Shown one piece after another: positions 11,135 to 33,525 of a DNA stretch of 57,752 bases; positions within the stretch are counted from its first letter, which is position 1, and every line of letters begins with the position of its first letter. Both the position numbers and the translations under genes were made by a program. The stretch is from an uncultured SAR116 cluster alpha proteobacterium (lineage in GTDB: Bacteria; Pseudomonadota; Alphaproteobacteria; Puniceispirillales; Puniceispirillaceae), in NCBI GenBank assembly GCA_902559985.1, contig CACEJY010000008.1, forward strand, positions 1-57,752, read 5' to 3'. The notes below the pieces were generated by a model, which was not told where the DNA came from, did not search any database, and worked only from the letters and a program-made list of their open reading frames with translations.

Positions 11135-11266
11135 CCACACCGCTTTATCACTTAACTCATACGGTGGTATTACTGTTGGATGCGATTGTTGTATATCCCG
11201 CTGCAATGGGGTAAACCGAAAATCGGCATAGTTAGGTTGATAGTTAGTTTGTTTGGGAATTGTGGG

Positions 11267-12403
11267 ATGAGGTCGATAGCTTGTATCAGTGATCTACAAG
11301 AGCTGGCAAAACGCCGCGTTCCAAAGATGTTTTATGACTATGCGGATAGCGGATCATGGTCAGAAACAACGTATCAAGCGAATGAAACGGATTTGGCCGC
11401 CATTAAATTTCGTCAGCGGGTTGCTTTGGATGTCAGTAAACGGTCGACCGAAATGTTCATGCTGGGGCAAAGGCTGCCAATGCCGGTTGCTCTAGCGCCA
11501 ACCGGTTTAACCGGTATGCAACGTGCTGATGGTGAGATTCTGGCAGCGCGCGCAGCAGCTGATTTTGGCGTGCCTTTCACCCTTTCCACAATGTCAATTT
11601 GCTCTATTGAAGATGTTGCAGCAAATAGTCCGGATCCATTCTGGTTTCAGCTTTATGTGATGCGTGATCGCGATTTTGTCTCGCGGCTGATCGAACGTGC
11701 GCGTGATGCCAACTGCTCAGCCTTGATGGTGACCCTTGATCTGCAGCTATTGGGGCAACGCCATAAAGATATTTACAATGGCTTAAGTGCGCCGCCAAAG
11801 GCAACTATAAGAAATCTATTGAACTTGATGCAAAAGCCGGCATGGTGTCTTGGAATGCTTGGCACAAAACGACGAAAATTTGGCAATATTGTTGGGCATG
11901 TAAAAGGCGTAAAAGACATGTCATCATTGTCCGACTGGACCGTCAGCCAGTTTGACCCGTCTTTGTCATGGGATGACGTAGCAAAGATCCGAAAGCAATG
12001 GGGCGGCAAATTGATTGTCAAAGGAATTCTTGATGTTGAGGATGCGCTTGCTGCCGTAAATATTGGGGCGGATGCAATTGTTGTCTCTAACCATGGTGGC
12101 CGCCAATTGGATGGCGCGGTGTCGTCAATTGTTGCATTGCCGCCCATTGTTGATGCGGTGAATGATCGAGCTGAAGTGTGGATGGATAGCGGCATACGTT
12201 CTGGCCAGGACGTGTTGCGTGCGGTTGCACTTGGCGCACAAGGTACGATGATCGGCCGTGCTTTTTTATACGGTTTGGGGGCAAAAGGCCAAGCAGGAGT
12301 TCGACAGGCTCTTGACATTATTCACAAGGAACTGGATTTGACACTTGGGCTTTGTGGCCAGTCAGATTTGTCAAAGGTAGACTCATCTATTCTGACGAAA
12401 TAA
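11267..12403 (+). CDS. FMN-dependent alpha-hydroxy-acid dehydrogenase (LldD-like)
   Basis: A 378-residue TIM-barrel flavoprotein of the L-lactate dehydrogenase/glycolate oxidase family. The start at 11267 gives the family-typical opening leading into R-V-P-K-M-F-Y-D-Y-A-D-S-G-S-W; the ORF itself extends 87 bases upstream without such features. Catalytic residues are visible: Tyr in F-Q-L-Y, Lys in L-I-V-K-G-I, His in S-N-H-G-G-R-Q-L-D-G, and the FMN phosphate loop D-S-G-I-R-S-G-Q-D. It oxidises an L-2-hydroxy acid to the 2-oxo acid, passing electrons to quinone or cytochrome. Its last 21 bases overlap the convergent Asp/Glu-racemase-like gene. The substrate is not determinable; a paralogue lies at 32374. 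Confidence 0.9.
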   Translation: MRSIACISDLQELAKRRVPKMFYDYADSGSWSETTYQANETDLAAIKFRQRVALDVSKRSTEMFMLGQRLPMPVALAPTGLTGMQRADGEILAARAAADFGVPFTLSTMSICSIEDVAANSPDPFWFQLYVMRDRDFVSRLIERARDANCSALMVTLDLQLLGQRHKDIYNGLSAPPKATIRNLLNLMQKPAWCLGMLGTKRRKFGNIVGHVKGVKDMSSLSDWTVSQFDPSLSWDDVAKIRKQWGGKLIVKGILDVEDALAAVNIGADAIVVSNHGGRQLDGAVSSIVALPPIVDAVNDRAEVWMDSGIRSGQDVLRAVALGAQGTMIGRAFLYGLGAKGQAGVRQALDIIHKELDLTLGLCGQSDLSKVDSSILTK

Positions 12404-21603: not shown

Positions 21604-22341
21604 ATGGATGACCGAAAAATATTAGTTTTGACGGGAGCAAGCCGCGGAATAGGCCATGCAACAGTCAAACGATTTTCTAGTGCTGGCTGGCGAGTGATCA
21701 CCTGTTCGCGCCACGGTTTTCCCGAGAATTGTCCTTGGGAGGCGGGCCCGGAGGACCATTTGAAAATTGACCTATCATCACCTGATGATGTGCAACGGGG
21801 CGCAGCAGAATTGATTGATCGCCTTGAAGGTAAGCCTCTTCACGCGCTAGTCAATAATGCGGGTGTTTCCCCAAAGGAACCCGATGGAAGCCGGCTTGAT
21901 TGCCGAAAAACGCCCCTGAATTTATGGCAGACGGTTTATCAGGTGAATGTCTTTGCCCCCATCATGCTGGCACAGCAGCTTTGCTCAGCCTTGAAGGAGG
22001 GCGGTGGTTCGATTGTTAACGTGACATCGATTGCCGGAGGCCGGGTGCATGAATTTGCTGGATCCGCCTACTCAACATCGAAGGCAGCTCTTGGTGCCCT
22101 TACTCGCGAAATGGCATCAGATTTTGGTAAGTTGGGTATTCGGGTTAATGCCATTGCGCCCGGGGAAATCAAAACTGATATTCTCTCCCCGGATAGTGAA
22201 ACAGCTATTCTGCCGCAAATTCCACTTGGTCGATTTGGCAATGCTGATGAAGTTGCGGACACTGTTTTTTTTCTATGCAGTGATCAAGCGCAATATCTTA
22301 ATGGTTCTGAAATTCATGTGAATGGCGGTCAGCATGTTTGA
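21604..22341 (+). CDS. Short-chain dehydrogenase/reductase
   Basis: A 245-residue classical SDR with cofactor motif T-G-A-S-R-G-I-G near residue 11, N-N-A-G near 85, catalytic Ser in N-V-T-S-I-A-G-G, Y-S-T-S-K, and a C-terminal N-G-S-E-I-H-V-N-G-G. It interconverts an alcohol and a ketone or aldehyde with NAD(P)H. It sits between the amine transporter and a class III aminotransferase, so its substrate may be a carbonyl or hydroxy intermediate of amine breakdown, which is inference. Its end is 45 bases before the aminotransferase start. Confidence 0.87.
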   Translation: MDDRKILVLTGASRGIGHATVKRFSSAGWRVITCSRHGFPENCPWEAGPEDHLKIDLSSPDDVQRGAAELIDRLEGKPLHALVNNAGVSPKEPDGSRLDCRKTPLNLWQTVYQVNVFAPIMLAQQLCSALKEGGGSIVNVTSIAGGRVHEFAGSAYSTSKAALGALTREMASDFGKLGIRVNAIAPGEIKTDILSPDSETAILPQIPLGRFGNADEVADTVFFLCSDQAQYLNGSEIHVNGGQHV

Positions 22342-22385
22342 GACGTTTAGCGTACTTAAACATTTGCGCAGATAGGATCACAATA

Positions 22386-23810
22386 ATGACACACGATAGA
22401 TTAATAACACATGATCAGCCGCTTGGTGGAAATTCACCAGCCAGTCGAGATATTGCATTTCAATTGCACCCCTATACCAACCCGGCAGTACTTCGAGAGG
22501 CAGGTCCGCACATTATGGCTGAGGGGCAAGGGGTCTTTGTGGTTGACGAGAATGGCAAACGATTTTACGAGGGGATGAGCGGCCTGTGGTGTACGTCTCT
22601 TGGCTTTTCTGAGCCTGAGTTAATTGAAGCTGCTGTGGCACAATTTAAGAAGCTACCTTTTTATCACAGCTTTGCTGGTAAAACCGTAAATCCGGCAATT
22701 GATCTTGCTGAAATGCTAATTGCTAACGCCCCGCCAGCTGGTGCTGGTAGTGTGATGAGCAAAATGTTTTTCGCCGGATCCGGTTCTGAGGCAAATGACA
22801 CCGCAATCAAAATGATTTGGTATTATAACGCCGCGTTGGGCCGTCCGGAAAAACGCAAGATTATTAGCCGGAGAAAGGGCTATCACGGGGTGACAATGGC
22901 GGCGGCAAGCATGACCGCGCTCTCTTACGCACAAGATGGTTTTGGTCTGCCGCTTGACTTTGTGAAGCATACCAGCGCGCCTGATTTTTACAATGGCGGG
23001 TTGCCTGGAGAAAGTGAAGAAGATTTTGCCAGTCGGTGTGCAGCAAATCTTGAGGCACTGATCTTGGATGAAGGGCCAGACACTGTTGCCGCCTTGTTTG
23101 CCGAACCGGTGATGGGCGCTGGTGGTGTTATCATTCCACCAAAAACTTATTTTGCAGAAATCCGTGCAGTGCTTGAAAAATACGATGTTTTGCTGGTTGC
23201 CGATGAGGTTATTTGTGGCTTTGGTCGTACGGGCAACATGTGGGGATCGCAAACTATGGATGTCCGTCCAGATATGCTAACCTGTGCAAAAGCCCTGTCA
23301 TCTGCTTATTTGCCGATTTCAGCGATTATGCTCTCAGAAAAAATATATGTGCCAATCGCTGAGCATGCAGAACGGCTGGGTATCTTTGGCCACGGCTTTA
23401 CCTACTCAGCGCATCCTGTTTGCGCAGCGGTTGCCCTTCGTGCACAGGAATTAATGCAGGAGCGTGATATTATTGGCCATGTTCGAGCCATCGCTCCGCA
23501 GTTTAAAGCGCGCATTGCAAGACTATCCAAATTTGATTTCATTGGCAACGAGCGAGCGGTTGGCCTGATTGGTGCAATAGAATTCGCAGTAAATTCTGAT
23601 GACCATAAAAAATTTGACCCCTCGCATCAAATCGCGCGACAGGCAGTGTCCATTATCCAAAAACATGGTGTGATTTTACGAGCCTTGCCGGGGGACATTA
23701 TTGGGTTCTGCCCGCCATTGATTATTTCGGAAACTGAGATTGACGATATGTTTGACCGTATTGAGGCTGGGCTTGTTGAAGTGGATAAGCTTGCGGCAAG
23801 TTTGCGCTAA
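22386..23810 (+). CDS. Class III PLP aminotransferase (omega-amine:pyruvate / putrescine aminotransferase-like)
   Basis: About 474 residues. Class III signatures include M-S-G-L-W-C, F-F-A-G-S-G-S-E-A-N-D-T-A, R-R-K-G-Y-H-G-V-T, L-V-A-D-E-V-I-C-G-F-G-R-T-G, and the Schiff-base Lys in C-A-K-A-L-S-S. W-C and Y-H-G patterns place it near SpuC, beta-alanine and omega-amine transaminases. The ATG at 22386 (AGGA upstream) is chosen over an earlier ATG overlapping the SDR stop. With the PotA-PotD-type importer and the aldehyde dehydrogenase at 24934 it fits oxidation of putrescine-like amines through an aminoaldehyde. Confidence 0.88.
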   Translation: MTHDRLITHDQPLGGNSPASRDIAFQLHPYTNPAVLREAGPHIMAEGQGVFVVDENGKRFYEGMSGLWCTSLGFSEPELIEAAVAQFKKLPFYHSFAGKTVNPAIDLAEMLIANAPPAGAGSVMSKMFFAGSGSEANDTAIKMIWYYNAALGRPEKRKIISRRKGYHGVTMAAASMTALSYAQDGFGLPLDFVKHTSAPDFYNGGLPGESEEDFASRCAANLEALILDEGPDTVAALFAEPVMGAGGVIIPPKTYFAEIRAVLEKYDVLLVADEVICGFGRTGNMWGSQTMDVRPDMLTCAKALSSAYLPISAIMLSEKIYVPIAEHAERLGIFGHGFTYSAHPVCAAVALRAQELMQERDIIGHVRAIAPQFKARIARLSKFDFIGNERAVGLIGAIEFAVNSDDHKKFDPSHQIARQAVSIIQKHGVILRALPGDIIGFCPPLIISETEIDDMFDRIEAGLVEVDKLAASLR

Positions 23811-24933: not shown

Positions 24934-26379
24934 ATGTTGGATAAAACCGAATTTTACATCAATGGGTCTTGGGTGCCATCAATCGACGGGCGCAAGTTCC
25001 CTGTGTTTAATCCTGCCACCGAAGACGCATTTGCGACAATTATGCTTGGCGGCGAAAAGGACGCGCAAGCGGCGATTGAAGCGGCCAAGAATGCTTTTCT
25101 GGACTGGTCGCAAACAAGTCCTCAAGACCGCGCAGCATATCTGCAAAAGCTGCTGGATGTCTATATTTCCCGCAATGATGAAATGGGGTCTGTGATTTCA
25201 ACCGAGATGGGTGCGCCCATTGATATGGCAGTTCGCGATCAGGCTGGGTCTGGCAGTAGTCATTTAAAAGCTTTTATTCGCGCTTTAGGCTCAATGGAAT
25301 TTCAGCGTGCTCTTCGCCCTGGCATTGAAGGCCAGGATATCGTGTATGAAGCGGCTGGTGTTGCAGGCCTGATTACCCCTTGGAACTGGCCGATGAATCA
25401 GGTTGTTCTGAAAGTTGGTGCTGCTTTGGCGGCAGGCTGTACCATGGTTTTAAAACCATCGGAAATTGCCCCGCTATCAAGTGTTGTATTTGCCGAAATG
25501 GTGCATGAGGCTGGTTTTCCGCCTGGCGTTTTCAACATGGTCAATGGTGATGGCATTGGTGTTGGTTCAATTTTATCGTCACATCCCGGCATTGATGTTG
25601 TGTCATTCACTGGATCAACTCGCGCTGGCATTCTTATCAGCAAGGCAGCTGCAGATACGGTGAAAACTGTCTCGCTAGAACTTGGTGGCAAATCACCAAA
25701 CCTGGTTTTTGATGATTGCGATTTGGAAAAGGCGGTTCGGTCAGGGGCTGCGTTCTGCTTCAATAACACGGGCCAGTCCTGCAATGCAGCAACGCGGATG
25801 TTGGTTCAGCGTTCAATCTATAATGAGGCCGTTGAAATCGCGGCGGCCAAGGCAGCTAGTACAAAGGTAGACTTGCCGTCAAATGAGGGCAAGCATATTG
25901 GACCACTGGTTTCAGAGGCACAGTTTGAGAAGGTACAGAGGCTTATTCAAACAGGGATTGATGAAGGCGCACGGTTAGTGGCTGGCGGTGTTGGCCGCCC
26001 CGAAGGCTTAAATCGTGGCTGGTTTGTTAGGCCCACTGTATTTGCTGATGCAAAACCAGATATGACCATCATGCGTGAAGAAATTTTTGGACCCGTGCTT
26101 GCTATGATGCCGTTTGATAGCGAAGATGAAGCCATTTCGATTGCGAACGATACGCAATATGGCCTTGCAGCTTATATCCAGACCGGGAATATGGAACGAG
26201 CACGCCGGGTGGCTGGACAACTGCGTTCGGGCATGGTTCAGGTGAATGGTGCGCCACGCGCTTCAGGCAGTCCATTTGGTGGCTACAAGCAATCTGGCGT
26301 TGGTCGTGAGGGTGGATTTTGGGGCATTGAGGAATTCCTTGAGATTAAAACCATCAGCGGAATTGTTGACTCGCGTTAA
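24934..26379 (+). CDS. NAD(P)-dependent aldehyde dehydrogenase
   Basis: A 481-residue classical aldehyde dehydrogenase. Motifs in order: W-N-W-P-M-N, F-T-G-S-T-R, general base Glu in L-E-L-G-G-K-S-P, nucleophile Cys in N-T-G-Q-S-C-N-A-A-T-R near residue 285, and E-E-I-F-G-P-V-L. It oxidises an aldehyde to the carboxylic acid without CoA. In position it is the last gene of the amine-uptake block, so an aminoaldehyde such as 4-aminobutanal is the expected substrate, although the family is broad. The 193 bases before it contain no gene. Confidence 0.9.
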   Translation: MLDKTEFYINGSWVPSIDGRKFPVFNPATEDAFATIMLGGEKDAQAAIEAAKNAFLDWSQTSPQDRAAYLQKLLDVYISRNDEMGSVISTEMGAPIDMAVRDQAGSGSSHLKAFIRALGSMEFQRALRPGIEGQDIVYEAAGVAGLITPWNWPMNQVVLKVGAALAAGCTMVLKPSEIAPLSSVVFAEMVHEAGFPPGVFNMVNGDGIGVGSILSSHPGIDVVSFTGSTRAGILISKAAADTVKTVSLELGGKSPNLVFDDCDLEKAVRSGAAFCFNNTGQSCNAATRMLVQRSIYNEAVEIAAAKAASTKVDLPSNEGKHIGPLVSEAQFEKVQRLIQTGIDEGARLVAGGVGRPEGLNRGWFVRPTVFADAKPDMTIMREEIFGPVLAMMPFDSEDEAISIANDTQYGLAAYIQTGNMERARRVAGQLRSGMVQVNGAPRASGSPFGGYKQSGVGREGGFWGIEEFLEIKTISGIVDSR

Positions 26380-26403: not shown

Positions 26404-27030
26404 TTAGTCGTTCTCGTTTAGGCCAGCACCTGCGCCTGCAAGGCGAGACTCCTCGGTTGCTGGGGCGTAAGTGTTTTTGGCGAAGTTCTCTAGAACACTA
26501 ACACAGGCGGTTGCAGTAGCCGGCACGCGTTGCAAATCTGATACAATGGTGACCGTGATGTTAGGCATGCTAGTACTGACTATTGAAATTTGGCAGGGTG
26601 CCGAATCTCCAAGAATTGCTGTATCATTGTTGGTATAACCAATCTGGTCTTTTGCCAGGTAAAAACGCGATGATCCTATGTTTATCTCAAGCGGCTTTTT
26701 TGTTATGCGAATGGCCACAAACGGAATCAGCAACAGTGGTGTCTTGATCCGCGAAAACTGCACTTCATCGCCAAACGCACCATCCCCATAAGCGGCACCA
26801 ATGGTAATAGGGCAGTAATGTCCGTGAGCGCCAGTTTCATCCGGCCAACTTGTGAGATTACCATGATGACGCCAGCTTAAATATCGGCACAGCGCCATTA
26901 CACCTGGCAGTTGCCGGCGCTGGAGCCACTTTACAGCGTAACCAGCCTCTTCAGCAAGGCCCCAATCCAATCCGCTTCCGCGGGCTGCTTTTGTTGCAAG
27001 AGCGCCAATTTCACCAATCGACCAAGTCAT
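26404..27030 (-). CDS. DUF3726-like protein of unknown function
   Basis: A 208-residue soluble protein starting at the ATG at 27030, five bases after the stop of the upstream unknown gene; a longer reading frame would overlap that gene. It opens with M-T-W-S-I-G-E-I-G-A-L-A-T-K-A-A-R-G-S-G and W-G-L-A-E-E-A-G-Y-A, the pattern I associate with DUF3726. There is no signal peptide or membrane helix, and I know of no assigned reaction. It is the last gene of a tight leftward operon with a 584-residue unknown protein and an M19 dipeptidase, so it probably works with them. Confidence 0.7.
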   Translation of the reverse strand: MTWSIGEIGALATKAARGSGLDWGLAEEAGYAVKWLQRRQLPGVMALCRYLSWRHHGNLTSWPDETGAHGHYCPITIGAAYGDGAFGDEVQFSRIKTPLLLIPFVAIRITKKPLEINIGSSRFYLAKDQIGYTNNDTAILGDSAPCQISIVSTSMPNITVTIVSDLQRVPATATACVSVLENFAKNTYAPATEESRLAGAGAGLNEND

Positions 27031-27035
27031 TATCA

Positions 27036-28790
27036 CTAATGATCTGGGTGATCGCTGTGAGCAATTGGCGGGTAACACAATGCATCTGGATCCAGGCAGG
27101 CCAGTTCATCCGGAAATGGGGCTCCTTGATACATGGTGATTCTTAGCCAGCGATCTGATCGTGGGTCGAATTTTGAAGCACCAAAGAAAGACAGCTTGCA
27201 ACGTAATAAATCAATGGGCTGCATGCTCGCTGAGATGGTGTTATCCTGAATTTCGGCATATTCAAGTTTAGATACTGTTTGGGCGCGCCTCACAATATGC
27301 CGGTGTTCCGGATGTTGAAGCAAAAACTGGGCGACGTTATTTTTATTTTCGTTTTTGGCCAACCATTCATCAATTTTAATCATCGCCAAAACGGCATCAC
27401 GCCCCGGAGCGAGCGGCTGTTCATACGGTTCAATTGGCTCGTCAAATCTTTCGCCAAGCCGTGGCTCTAGCTTTTCTTCTGACACATACCAGACTCGAGC
27501 CAGGGCGTCATTTCGTGTGTAGTCAATTTTATCCGTCCAATGATAGATGGTGTTCATCATCTCACGAAGCCGCGATAAGGGCATCGCACCATCAATTCGG
27601 AAATGAATGGTTTCATCAGCGGCCATTCCCGTTGCAAGATCATCAATCAAGGAACCGTGATCTTCAAGCAATAGCGAAACGAGTTGTTCCTGCCCTTCAA
27701 GACTCAGGTTAGCCTCGCCCCACAGATAAATTCTATTCCAAAGGTAGGGGGCATCTGCCGAAGTGGCGCTGACAAATGCACCAAGATTGGCAAGATCATC
27801 ACGCAAGGCTTGTGTTTTGCCAATCTGATAAGGACTATCACTTTTCCACTCGTCAGCATTTATTGCCGCTCTGGCTATCAAAGTTAAGAAGTTGGAGAGA
27901 CCTTTTCTGTCGGTGCTTGGTAAATTACGCACCCGTGCTAGTGCCGTTTCACGGGCATTAATCCAGGAGTGAACCAATGATGGGTGATTGATCAGGAATG
28001 GGGCCATGCCTAGGCCCGTTGAGTTGCCGACACCAATTCGGCGGCGAATTTTTGGATCGAGGGACACAGCGGTCTGTGGCGATTTTGCCGCTGCCATGTG
28101 TTCAACAATATCGATGGTAAAGGAACGAATAAGCCAGACCGCCAGTAATTCTGGCTGAAACGAGCCGGAGAATTCGGGCCTCGTTGCCCATAAATCACGA
28201 TCTGCCGCTCCAAATTTTCCCGAGCCGTAAACTGCGGTAGTGCGCATCAGATAGCCAATAGGTTCAATTTTATCAAGGCTGGGTTGGGTGCCCCTGGCTA
28301 GGCAATCGCGAACGTAATCAAACAGCCGAACTGATCGATTTGCCCGGGATAAAACGAATTCTCCATTCGAAATTCTACCTGCCTCTTGTAAAGGCACGTT
28401 TTTTTCCAAACGCTCAATATCCGAATCATCAATCAGTCCATCATGTAGGGTGAAGGTTGCGTCCCATGCTTCGGCGATTACCCGATCCGATCGTTTTTCG
28501 GCTGGCAGATCATGGGCAAATGCAACAAGTGTGTAGCTGCGCTTTGGGCCAATTGCTTCATACGTAGCAGTGCCAACACCATTTTCATCAATATTCCACC
28601 GGCTGCGCTTAAATTGCCAGTTTTCGGCCTTCAAGCGGCGCAATAAAACTCGCATAAAGCTTAGACGGCTGTGATGAAATGATCCCATCCGCGCCAGTGT
28701 CATTATTTGGTTTGCAGGACGCAGGCCGATGGCGGGTACACCAGTTATGATTTGCGCCGGATTATTTTGGTGTGCATCTGGTTTTTTCAT
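27036..28790 (-). CDS. Conserved-looking 584-residue protein of unknown function
   Basis: I do not recognise this protein. It is soluble, with an N-terminal M-G-S-F-H-H-S-R-L-S-F-M-R segment near residue 36. A glycine-rich loop G-V-G-N-S-T-G-L-G-M-A-P-F lies near residue 270 and could bind a nucleotide or phosphate. The C-terminal half is rich in Trp, Asp and Glu. There is no signal peptide. The ORF is long, with alphaproteobacterial-looking codon use, and is packed between the M19 dipeptidase (14-base gap) and the DUF3726 gene (5-base gap), so it is certainly coding. A flavin- or nucleotide-linked enzyme, or a scaffold for its neighbours, are untested guesses. Confidence 0.85.
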   Translation of the reverse strand: MKKPDAHQNNPAQIITGVPAIGLRPANQIMTLARMGSFHHSRLSFMRVLLRRLKAENWQFKRSRWNIDENGVGTATYEAIGPKRSYTLVAFAHDLPAEKRSDRVIAEAWDATFTLHDGLIDDSDIERLEKNVPLQEAGRISNGEFVLSRANRSVRLFDYVRDCLARGTQPSLDKIEPIGYLMRTTAVYGSGKFGAADRDLWATRPEFSGSFQPELLAVWLIRSFTIDIVEHMAAAKSPQTAVSLDPKIRRRIGVGNSTGLGMAPFLINHPSLVHSWINARETALARVRNLPSTDRKGLSNFLTLIARAAINADEWKSDSPYQIGKTQALRDDLANLGAFVSATSADAPYLWNRIYLWGEANLSLEGQEQLVSLLLEDHGSLIDDLATGMAADETIHFRIDGAMPLSRLREMMNTIYHWTDKIDYTRNDALARVWYVSEEKLEPRLGERFDEPIEPYEQPLAPGRDAVLAMIKIDEWLAKNENKNNVAQFLLQHPEHRHIVRRAQTVSKLEYAEIQDNTISASMQPIDLLRCKLSFFGASKFDPRSDRWLRITMYQGAPFPDELACLDPDALCYPPIAHSDHPDH

Positions 28791-28804
28791 TTGTCAAATC
28801 ACTT

Positions 28805-29809
28805 TTACTTTGCCCCTATTTCAGTTTTTTGGCCCTGTTTTGGATCGAAACTACTATCATAAAATCGCAACCAGTTCTCACCCATTATCGCCGCTGTTTC
28901 GGTTTCGGCAAAGCCGTGCGCCCTCAATCCTGCTTTTATTGTACCAAAATGCCGATTATCTTCAAACCAGGTTGGCATTGAAGGAAACCCAGCATTTATG
29001 GCTGATCCTTCACCATAGTCAATTTCTTTTGTCCAGCGGCCCACCCGCATCCACTCGACAACGCTGTCCGGTTGGTCTTGGCACAGATCAGAACCAATGC
29101 CGATATTATCAATGCCCATCAGATCAGCAGTCCGGGCAATCATTTCGCAAAAGCTCTCGAGGGTGCAATCCGATTTTTCTCTTAAATGATGCGGATAGAG
29201 TGAAAATCCCAGCATACCACCTGATTGGCCAAGTGCTCTCAGTACATCATTAGATTTATTACGTTTTGCCGGATGCCAGAAATAGGGGTTCGCATGAGTT
29301 ATCGCAATCGGGCGTTCTGATATTTCAATGGCATCCAGTGTTGAGCGTTCAGCAGAATGGCTCATATCGACGACCATACCTACATTATTCATTTCCTTAA
29401 TGACCTGTCGGCCCATACGGGTGACGCCGCTATCTTCATCCTCATAACATCCGGTCGCCAGAAGTGACTGATTATTATAGGTCAGTTGCATGAAGCGCAC
29501 GCCAAGCATATGACAAATTTTCACCAGCCCAATATCATCTTCAATTGGAGAGGGGTTTTGTAGCCCAAAAAAAATCGCAGTTCGACCTTGAGTTTTCGCG
29601 TGCCGCACATCGTCTCCGGTGGTACCGTGGAAAATCAATTCCGGATATTGTTCGAACCAACGATTCCATTGCTCAATATTGGTTACAGTCTCACGAAACA
29701 TCTCATGATAAGCGATCGTTACATGAATTGCGTCTACCCCGCCTTCACGCATCTGCTTGAAGATTTTTTCAGACCAATTGGCGTATTGAAGGTTATCGAT
29801 CAAGTGCAT
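28805..29809 (-). CDS. Peptidase M19-family dipeptidase (renal/membrane dipeptidase type)
   Basis: About 334 residues of the M19 zinc amidohydrolase fold. Visible are H-V-T-I-A-Y-H in place of the usual first H-x-D metal motif, V-V-D-M-S-H-S, I-A-I-T-H-A-N for the second metal, and I-G-I-G-S-D near residue 245. M-G-E-N-W-L-R-F is the standard C-terminal motif. The ATG at 29809 gives the opening I-D-N-L-Q-Y-A-N-W-S seen in alphaproteobacterial members; a TTG at 29836 is also open. M19 enzymes cleave dipeptides, including D-amino acid and dehydro dipeptides. It heads the operon with two unknown genes. The changed N-terminal His-Asp motif suggests a divergent substrate. Confidence 0.85.
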   Translation of the reverse strand: MHLIDNLQYANWSEKIFKQMREGGVDAIHVTIAYHEMFRETVTNIEQWNRWFEQYPELIFHGTTGDDVRHAKTQGRTAIFFGLQNPSPIEDDIGLVKICHMLGVRFMQLTYNNQSLLATGCYEDEDSGVTRMGRQVIKEMNNVGMVVDMSHSAERSTLDAIEISERPIAITHANPYFWHPAKRNKSNDVLRALGQSGGMLGFSLYPHHLREKSDCTLESFCEMIARTADLMGIDNIGIGSDLCQDQPDSVVEWMRVGRWTKEIDYGEGSAINAGFPSMPTWFEDNRHFGTIKAGLRAHGFAETETAAIMGENWLRFYDSSFDPKQGQKTEIGAK

Positions 29810-30181
29810 CTTGTCACTCAGGGTTACCGGCGGCAATATAACTGGTCTTGGCGATGGTATAAAATTCTTCTGTGCCAGCTACCCGCAATAAAATTTTGTC
29901 CGATTTTCAACATCGCTCTTTATGCCTCTCATTGGCATTAAACGGGTGGTGAACTATCTGTCCGACGAGCCGTCTGACATTGCGCAACAGTGACTGAAAC
30001 AGACTTCAAATACAAGGGTTTTACTTTAGTGCATGACTAATTAGCACGGCATTTAGTTGCAGCCCCCACATTTTGCTGATAAGCGAAGTTTTTGCAGCTG
30101 TATGTATAGGTTATAACGGTTCATTCTTTGAGATGCTTAGATCGCTCAAACGTTTTGGTTTTTAACAATGAAAGGCGGGGA
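29810..30181. other. Divergent intergenic region between the dipeptidase operon and a DMT transporter
   Basis: These 372 bases hold no credible gene. They should contain promoters for both directions, but I found no clear -35/-10 pair. A TATAAC at about 30112-30117 is a possible -10 for the rightward gene with no good -35. Confidence 0.4.
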
Positions 30182-31219
30182 ATGAAGACGATCACTGATA
30201 AAATAACAACGCCATTTTTTGCTCTGAGCTTATTAACTATCGCAATGGGTATCATTCCTTTGAATGACGCGTTGATAAAATTAATGAGTGGGGACGTGCC
30301 GCTTGGCCAGATTGTTGCCATCCGGGCGGTTGTTGCGCTTGGTTTATTGGGGATCTTTAGTCATAGCTTGCGCTCTATGCTTTTCCTGCCAGCAAGGGTG
30401 TTCTGGTTGTTTTTTGCCCGCGGTATGTGCTTGGTGCTAGCCATGGTTTTGTTTTTTGTCTCATTGGGGTCGCTACCACTTGCGAGTGTTATTGCAATCT
30501 TTTTTGTGTCCCCCTTGATCATTACGGTTTTGTCGGTGCCGTTGTTGGGAGAAAAGATCGGTTTGCACCGTCTGACTGCGGTGACCTCTGGAATGTTGGG
30601 TGTACTGTTTATTATTCAGCCGGGTGGGTTAGAGTTTCAAATTGAAACGCTTTTTGTTGTCGGTGCAGCCTTCAGTTATGCCGTATTTCAAATCTGGACA
30701 AGGCGACTGAAAACGGTGGGTAATCTGACTGGAATGGTCGCTGTTCAACATGTCTGCTATTTGGCCGTTGGTTTGATGCTCACTGCGGTAAATTTTATTT
30801 GGCCCATGGATTATTCAGGTAATCCTACAGTTGATTTTTTGCTGCGCTCGCCTACTTTGATGTCATACACCCATATTTTTTACGTGGTGATTTGCAGCTT
30901 TTCTGTCCTGCTGTTGTCGTTTGCATCATCTAATGCCTATCGGTCTGTCGAGGCATCGTTAATCGCACCATTTGAGTATGTGGCAATTCCTCTTGGTGTG
31001 GTTTGGGGAATTTTGATCTGGAATGACTGGCCAGACAAGATGGCGCTTGTCGGGATTGTGCTGATTTTCGCAGGTGGGCTCTATACGCTATATCGTGAGA
31101 ATATTAAATCGGTTGATCTTGTTACCTCAACCCCCATGCCAGCAACCGCCGCAATTGCGCAGTCTCAGGATTGCATGGATGATGCGGAGACCGTGTGCCT
31201 AAGCAAAAGCCAAAAGTGA
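30182..31219 (+). CDS. DMT-superfamily transporter (EamA/RhaT family)
   Basis: A 345-residue membrane protein with about ten hydrophobic segments; L-N-D-A-L-I-K-L-M-S-G in the first helix is typical of the alphaproteobacterial EamA group. The ATG at 30182 follows AGGCGGGGA closely. A hydrophilic tail of about 35 residues extends after the last helix and is of no known function. It is divergent from the M19/unknown/DUF3726 operon and may import or export the compound handled there, which is speculative. Confidence 0.85.
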   Translation: MKTITDKITTPFFALSLLTIAMGIIPLNDALIKLMSGDVPLGQIVAIRAVVALGLLGIFSHSLRSMLFLPARVFWLFFARGMCLVLAMVLFFVSLGSLPLASVIAIFFVSPLIITVLSVPLLGEKIGLHRLTAVTSGMLGVLFIIQPGGLEFQIETLFVVGAAFSYAVFQIWTRRLKTVGNLTGMVAVQHVCYLAVGLMLTAVNFIWPMDYSGNPTVDFLLRSPTLMSYTHIFYVVICSFSVLLLSFASSNAYRSVEASLIAPFEYVAIPLGVVWGILIWNDWPDKMALVGIVLIFAGGLYTLYRENIKSVDLVTSTPMPATAAIAQSQDCMDDAETVCLSKSQK

Positions 31220-32258: not shown

Positions 32259-32373
32259 ATTATCGACCCAAACGACTCAGCAAGTTGTTGGTTCGTTGGT
32301 ATTTTATTCTTTGAGTTGGTCTGCCCAAGAAATTTGAGGCCAAAATATGCGCTGTTGCGTTGGTGAGTTGAGC

Positions 32374-33525
32374 ATGGATTTAATGAATAAATATCCGCGT
32401 TTGTCGGACTTAAAAAAACCGGCGGCAAAGCGCATTCCAAAATTTGTATACGCCTATTTAGACTCGGGCACGGGTCATGACCGGGCCAAGGATGAGAACC
32501 GCGCTTTCCTTGATGGCATTGAGTTAACGCCGCAATTTATGCGAGGGCGTGTCGACCCGGATCTGACAACAGAACTAGGAACAAAGACATTCAAAGCGCC
32601 GTTTGGAGCGGCACCGATTGGCCTGTCATCATTGATCTGGCCCGGAGCTGAGTCGATCATTGGCAGGGCTGCCAAAAAACACGGCTTTCCTTACACATTA
32701 AGTACGGTAGCAGGCGAGTCTATCGAAATGTTAGCTGATTCGGCCGGCGAAATGAGCTGGTTTCAGCTTTACGCACCGAGAGATCGTGATTTGATGCGTG
32801 ATTTGCTGCGTCGAGCAAAGGGTTGTGGTTGCACCACATTGGTCATTACCGCTGACGTGCCGTCGCCAAGCCGGCGGGAACGAATGCGTATTGCTGGTGC
32901 GCCTCTCGGAAGCCGTGGTAATTCTGCTTTCTCACCACGCGTTATCTGGCAGAGCATGTTGCGGCCTGAATGGGCGGTGCGGACATTGCTAAATGGAGGG
33001 GCGCGGTTCCGCAATATGGAACCTTATGCCAAGAATGATGGCACAATGGGCATTACGAAATTTATTGGTGATCAGCTGAATGGCTCGCTTGATTGGGATT
33101 ATTTGGCCGAAATTCGTGCTTTATGGGAAGGAGAAATCTATCTCAAAGGCGTGCTTCATGGCCAAGATGCGGCACGAGCTATTAACCTTGGTGTTAATGG
33201 GATTGTAGTTTCAAACCACGGAGGACGCCAGCTCGATGCTGCGCCACCACCTTTGGCACAATTATCGGCCGTTCGTGCCGCTGTTGGCAAGGATGTGCCA
33301 TTGATCGTTGACAGCGGTATTATGTCGGGACTCGATGTTGTGCGGGTTTTGGCAGCTGGAGCTGATTTTGCAATGATTGGCCGAGGATTCATGTATGCCG
33401 TTGCGGCGCTTGGCAACAAGGGTGGTGAACATGCCGCAACAATTTTGCTGGAAGAGGTACGTGATGTCATGGCGCAGCTGGGTTTGCAAACGATTGATGA
33501 CGTGAAGCGGCTTGGCCACGACTAG
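32374..33525 (+). CDS. FMN-dependent alpha-hydroxy-acid dehydrogenase, second copy
   Basis: A 383-residue LldD-family flavoprotein. It has R-I-P-K-F-V-Y-A-Y-L-D-S-G, F-Q-L-Y, Lys in I-Y-L-K-G-V, catalytic His in S-N-H-G-G-R-Q-L-D, and the FMN loop D-S-G-I-M-S-G-L-D. The ATG at 32374 with GGTGAG eight bases before is preferred to the ATG at 32347. It is clearly diverged from the paralogue at 11267 (Y-A-Y-L-D against Y-D-Y-A-D in the N-terminal motif), which points to a different hydroxy acid. It follows a cytochrome c gene and precedes a copper chaperone gene, suggesting periplasmic-side respiratory coupling. Confidence 0.9.
   Translation: MDLMNKYPRLSDLKKPAAKRIPKFVYAYLDSGTGHDRAKDENRAFLDGIELTPQFMRGRVDPDLTTELGTKTFKAPFGAAPIGLSSLIWPGAESIIGRAAKKHGFPYTLSTVAGESIEMLADSAGEMSWFQLYAPRDRDLMRDLLRRAKGCGCTTLVITADVPSPSRRERMRIAGAPLGSRGNSAFSPRVIWQSMLRPEWAVRTLLNGGARFRNMEPYAKNDGTMGITKFIGDQLNGSLDWDYLAEIRALWEGEIYLKGVLHGQDAARAINLGVNGIVVSNHGGRQLDAAPPPLAQLSAVRAAVGKDVPLIVDSGIMSGLDVVRVLAAGADFAMIGRGFMYAVAALGNKGGEHAATILLEEVRDVMAQLGLQTIDDVKRLGHD

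Follow-up and report, generated by a model that had tools for sequence, protein, structure and literature searches.

Three tightly coupled genes in a SAR116 genome

The window, a stretch of 57,752 nucleotides, comes from a draft genome of 1.71 Mb, 73% complete, that has SAR116 (Puniceispirillum) genomes as close relatives. Its minus strand carries a trio of genes separated by gaps of 14 and 5 bases, and all three open reading frames were confirmed, in agreement with the original prediction of a three-gene operon. The first gene (28805..29809) encodes an M19-family (membrane-dipeptidase-like) hydrolase of 334 residues, an assignment that was borne out by alignments and by the match to PF01244 (255.9 bits, E 6.7e-76). 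The second (27036..28790) encodes a 584-residue protein outside any known family, referred to here as U584, and the third (26404..27030) a DUF3726 protein of 208 residues (PF12525, E 6e-14). Neither U584 nor DUF3726 has a name or an assigned function in the databases searched.

The neighbouring genes discussed here lie on the plus strand. The predicted divergent DMT transporter is an EamA gene (30128..31219), which is a conserved neighbour in SAR116 only and whose link to the pathway is uncertain. An aldehyde dehydrogenase (ALDH) gene (24934..26379) is convergent with the trio and is kept there in SAR116. A class III omega-aminotransferase gene (22338..23810) belongs to the same PRK06105 group as the aminotransferase in the trio operon of S. 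meliloti; its tie to the pathway is suggestive only. Elsewhere in the window, 11180-12400 and 32347-33522 are paralogous genes of ~390 residues that fall in one blast cluster, and by eye the latter resembles an FMN-dependent alpha-hydroxy-acid dehydrogenase.

U584 and DUF3726 are constant partners in distant bacteria

U584 was found in 51 of 61 relatives and on 224 genome contigs, spanning SAR116, Roseobacters, Rhizobiales, Granulosicoccaceae, Thiotrichaceae and Arenicellales, as well as in 168 plasmid records, one haloarchaeon included. Co-occurrence of the three genes, proposed in the original prediction as a check, extends far past close relatives (Rhodobacterales, Rhizobiales, Gammaproteobacteria, Betaproteobacteria). 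In neighbourhood counts drawn from 80 related loci, 78 extend far enough to show the gene after U584, and in 77 of these it is DUF3726; M19 immediately precedes U584 in 64 of 69; an ALDH gene is near the trio in 46/58 loci and an Ldh_2 gene in 32/58. Among 289 alphaproteobacterial genomes, DUF3726 adjoins U584 in every one that bears it (32/32), and in Mesorhizobium 131-2-1 the two are fused into a single protein of 814 residues. This near-constant adjacency, together with the fusion, strongly suggests that U584 and DUF3726 function as a pair, with DUF3726 an obligate partner.

A second subfamily of the trio, with U584 near 29% identity, occurs in S. meliloti (pSymB; 9223-21167 of L116) and in Bosea, where it is accompanied by an IclR regulator and PotABCD-type, that is polyamine-type, transport genes. 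In S. meliloti there are also genes for a class III aminotransferase, an ALDH and RidA. As the transport genes of this subfamily are of polyamine type, the chemistry of the core may be used on several substrates.

U584 matches no known family or solved fold

The claim that the 584-residue protein is without known relatives withstood wider searching: queried singly and as a profile, U584 matched nothing in Pfam, NCBIfam, PHROGs or PDB sequences. The family is strictly conserved, with ~130 invariant columns across 62 homologues. The glycine-rich loop noticed earlier, GVGNSTGLGM, is present, and its residues G253, G255, N256 and G261 do not vary, not even in homologues of about 29% identity. A P-loop reading of this segment was ruled out, because it contains no lysine. 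In a divergent set, 26 residues are identical in 24/24 sequences, among them Arg103, 155, 183, 222, 444 and 502; conservation of these arginines suggests that U584 may bind an anionic ligand or cofactor. The predicted model of U584 (pLDDT 85, pTM 0.88) resembled no solved fold in comparisons with the PDB and with viral structures, where the best Foldseek match had E 0.17 and TM ~0.1; these comparisons used the whole-chain model, so that a match may have been missed. VIA gave Z of at most 5.9 across 85 helical residues, which we treated as background.

DUF3726 looks like a shrunken Ldh_2 protein

The profile and structure searches suggested earlier were more informative for DUF3726. Its predicted model (pLDDT 82, pTM 0.81) matches Ldh_2, the type-2 malate/lactate dehydrogenase superfamily (PF02615), and this fold alone, at Z 9-11, while the best-scoring unrelated chain reaches Z 2.1. 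VIA-align returned Z values up to 11.2 over 174 residues, with Ldh_2 proteins accounting for all 15 entries at Z of at least 9, and the top 23 Foldseek hits were likewise all Ldh_2, at E 0.013 or worse. At the sequence level, PF02615 was unmatched in 52 DUF3726 members and the hhalign probability was 12%. Compared with Ldh_2, DUF3726 is ~130 residues shorter and is devoid of the SHG histidine and the GTNPFS segment; neither the catalytic histidine (H48) nor the segment G159-T160-N161-P162 of A3 has an equivalent in A2 or A5.

On a Natrinema plasmid (L114; 9965-12618 and 16154-17056), U584 is accompanied by a near full-length Ldh_2-like partner, and genes for a BCCT transporter and a quinolinate phosphoribosyltransferase-like protein lie close by; this archaeal arrangement is possibly ancestral. 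The partner occupies the same place after U584 and matches PF02615 at E 7e-9 (35.6 bits against a cut-off of 38.8). Because an Ldh_2 relative stands in this position, DUF3726, judged by its modelled fold, looks like an Ldh_2 protein that has shrunk and lost the SHG histidine, and it is probably a non-catalytic scaffold.

The M19 protein has an altered metal site

By profile, the trio M19 protein belongs to the same fold family as the membrane and renal dipeptidases. It was originally proposed that H-V-T-I-A-Y-H replaces the usual first His-x-Asp. The loss of this first metal-binding motif was confirmed, but H-V-T-I-A-Y-H lies ~22 residues past the HxD-equivalent stretch, which is I-D-N-L-Q-Y (residues 4-9), as against F-D-G-H-N-D in the canonical M19 paralogue of the window genome. 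Furthermore, the bridging metal ligand of renal dipeptidase, Glu125, is replaced by Gln84. Three of the five metal ligands are thereby lost, leaving His151 and His172; these second-site residues are retained together with Arg183 and Asp241, and His29 and His35 are specific to the trio subfamily. The replacement of both HxD and the bridging Glu is uniform in the 24/24 aligned members, and identical ligand losses are seen in 2i5g, the nearest solved M19 structure, annotated 'amidohydrolase', which is P. aeruginosa PA5396, encoded next to dimethylglycine genes. With HxD and the bridging Glu gone, the sequence makes a classical two-zinc dipeptidase unlikely. A search of the literature on DUF3726, PA5396 and the S. 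meliloti trio genes found no function.

Fuller operons carry onium-type transporters and an imine reductase-like enzyme

In Ruegeria TM1040, Phaeobacter, Aliiroseovarius, Mesorhizobium, Aminobacter, Roseateles XES5 and Shinella, the trio is part of a fuller operon ordered LysR - ALDH - M19 - (BCCT) - U584 - DUF3726 - Ldh_2. The Roseateles label of NZ_CP084753.1 is flagged UNVERIFIED_ORG; its operon resembles those of Shinella and Aminobacter, and the name may be wrong. In some operons a glycine-betaine-type ABC transporter (ProX/OpuA type) replaces BCCT. The nearest solved relative of its binding protein is DmpX (7yle), and comparison with the DmpX pocket residues (PMC10030565) revealed that W35, T64, W84, E113, W152 and W202 are retained, so that the onium cage is preserved along with most of the rest of the pocket. 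DMSP was rejected as the substrate, DmpX being only a relative of the operon's protein. For the operon Ldh_2, the nearest solved structure is delta1-piperideine-2-carboxylate reductase 1wtj (E 5e-53; next 2e-38), whose family makes N-methyl-L-amino acids. RidA genes are present in some operon versions, and enamine or imine intermediates would fit their presence.

The SAR116 operon has the order ALDH - M19 - U584 - DUF3726. The window locus and its nearest relatives (L026, L027, L037) do not have the in-operon ALDH, and the window's operon also has no Ldh_2, LysR or transporter gene. In the window genome, 73% complete, the best matches to the missing enzymes are paralogues of 30-33% identity, and no match to BCCT was found. 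Two genes there match the in-operon ALDH best, both at ~33% identity, and one of them is the convergent ALDH, which may stand in for it.

Neighbouring 'sarcosine oxidase' genes group with N-methylglutamate dehydrogenase

In TM1040, Phaeobacter, Aliiroseovarius and Roseateles XES5, the operon is flanked by genes annotated as heterotetrameric 'sarcosine oxidase' and by an AraC regulator. A tree of SoxB-like proteins (ignoring row second_G337, which was in the wrong frame) groups the operon-flanking copies with gmaS-adjacent copies, that is, with MgdA, whereas canonical SoxB forms a separate clade on a long branch (support 100/100). The Mgd group also takes in the copy on contig C13 of the window genome, which carries both types, and the trio-near copies of two further genomes (G125 and G266); in G125, the trio, Ldh_2, AraC and SoxB-D-A lie on one contig. 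A glycine betaine/dimethylglycine pathway had been considered for these annotations and was dropped, because the tree places the genes with Mgd.

Mgd-class matches were detected in 26 of 39 genomes with U584, against 30/250 (Fisher p 1.5e-12, uncorrected for phylogeny and genome size), and are absent from the other 13 of the 39. In 15 of the 26 genomes with both, gmaS is absent, indicating that methylamine is not the likely source there.

Proposed pathway and alternatives

The betaine transporters, imine reductase, ALDH and Mgd-type neighbours together point to conversion of a carboxylated N-methyl onium compound to N-methylglutamate. We propose, with a probability of roughly 0.7, that these three genes form the conserved core of an operon for the breakdown of an N-methylated carboxylate onium compound, with homarine (N-methylpicolinate) as the likeliest candidate; the product would be N-methylglutamate, and Mgd would demethylate this to glutamate. 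The earlier expectation that two unnamed proteins belong to a catabolic operon is supported. Conversion of homarine to N-methylglutamate would require the loss of ring carbon 6. By elimination, U584, seated on DUF3726 as a non-catalytic Ldh_2-like scaffold, would make the first attack on the pyridinium ring, and breaking the ring between C5 and C6 would yield a C5 aldehyde and an N-formyl-N-methyl group. The M19 protein might then hydrolyse a C-N bond, for instance to free C6 as formate from the N-formyl intermediate, ALDH could oxidise the C5 aldehyde, and the Ldh_2 enzyme could reduce the 2-methylimino acid to N-methylglutamate; in the window strain the last two enzymes would have to be supplied from outside the operon. 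It is a more tentative idea that U584-DUF3726 represents a new enzyme class, combining a fold unseen in solved structures with a shrunken Ldh_2 subunit. With no recognisable oxygenase or flavin protein involved, such an enzyme would open or activate an N-methylpyridinium ring, and an M19 hydrolase whose metal site has been remodelled would act next.

The original prediction favoured an unusual amide or dipeptide as the substrate, in which case the M19 protein would be the peptidase, and the strong M19 profile match and an amidase gene adjoining one trio copy agree with it. We consider this very improbable, given that the dipeptidase ligands are replaced throughout the aligned members and in 2i5g, and that the transporters in nearly all lineages are for onium compounds, not peptides; imine reductase, ALDH and Mgd-like genes complete a neighbourhood that does not support the claim. 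The existence of two subfamilies with different transporters and regulators, and the place of PA5396 (2i5g) beside dimethylglycine genes, would suit a general helper, acting for example on a toxic imine, enamine or formaldehyde adduct and recruited to several amine pathways, but the very strict conservation of U584 and its recurrence in operons that have uptake and regulator genes of their own make such a role improbable.

The substrate might instead be a different quaternary or N-methyl zwitterion (trigonelline, proline betaine, N-methylproline, dimethylated amino acids), degraded by similar chemistry, with Mgd or sarcosine-oxidase relatives finishing the demethylation. The transporters are generic betaine types, and Rieske, MttB, dimethylglycine-dehydrogenase-like and GcvT-like genes lie nearby in some lineages; these demethylases, however, differ by lineage, whereas the imine-reductase-type Ldh_2 and Mgd recur, and a homarine-Mgd link is already known (PMC13390433). 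We therefore regard a substrate of this kind as unlikely, if less so than the helper role.

If homarine is indeed the substrate, the trio would be a marker for homarine use, DUF3726 and the large unnamed U584 family would gain a function, and the many genomes that have N-methylglutamate dehydrogenase without methylamine genes would be explained. Marine plankton contain homarine in abundance as a nitrogen-rich metabolite, and among the abundant consumers are SAR116 and Roseobacters. A homarine operon is reported to have five enzyme genes and one regulator, a description taken here as a lead only.

Relation to known systems

With N-methylglutamate dehydrogenase MgdABCD the likeness lies in the SoxB-like gene near the operon, which groups with gmaS-linked copies; the Mgd-type genes of the window genome lie outside the window locus, on another contig (C13). 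The AraC regulator TmaR adjoins mgdABCD (PMC13390433). Mgd is reported to take part in homarine catabolism, in a pathway described as conserved (Ferrer-Gonzalez et al. 2026, Nat Microbiol 11:1531, as cited in PMC13390433). At this general level, the fuller operons resemble the homarine pathway in having Mgd-type genes beside them, in occurring in marine and other environmental bacteria, and in having onium-carboxylate uptake genes, whereas the operon of the window is cut to three genes.
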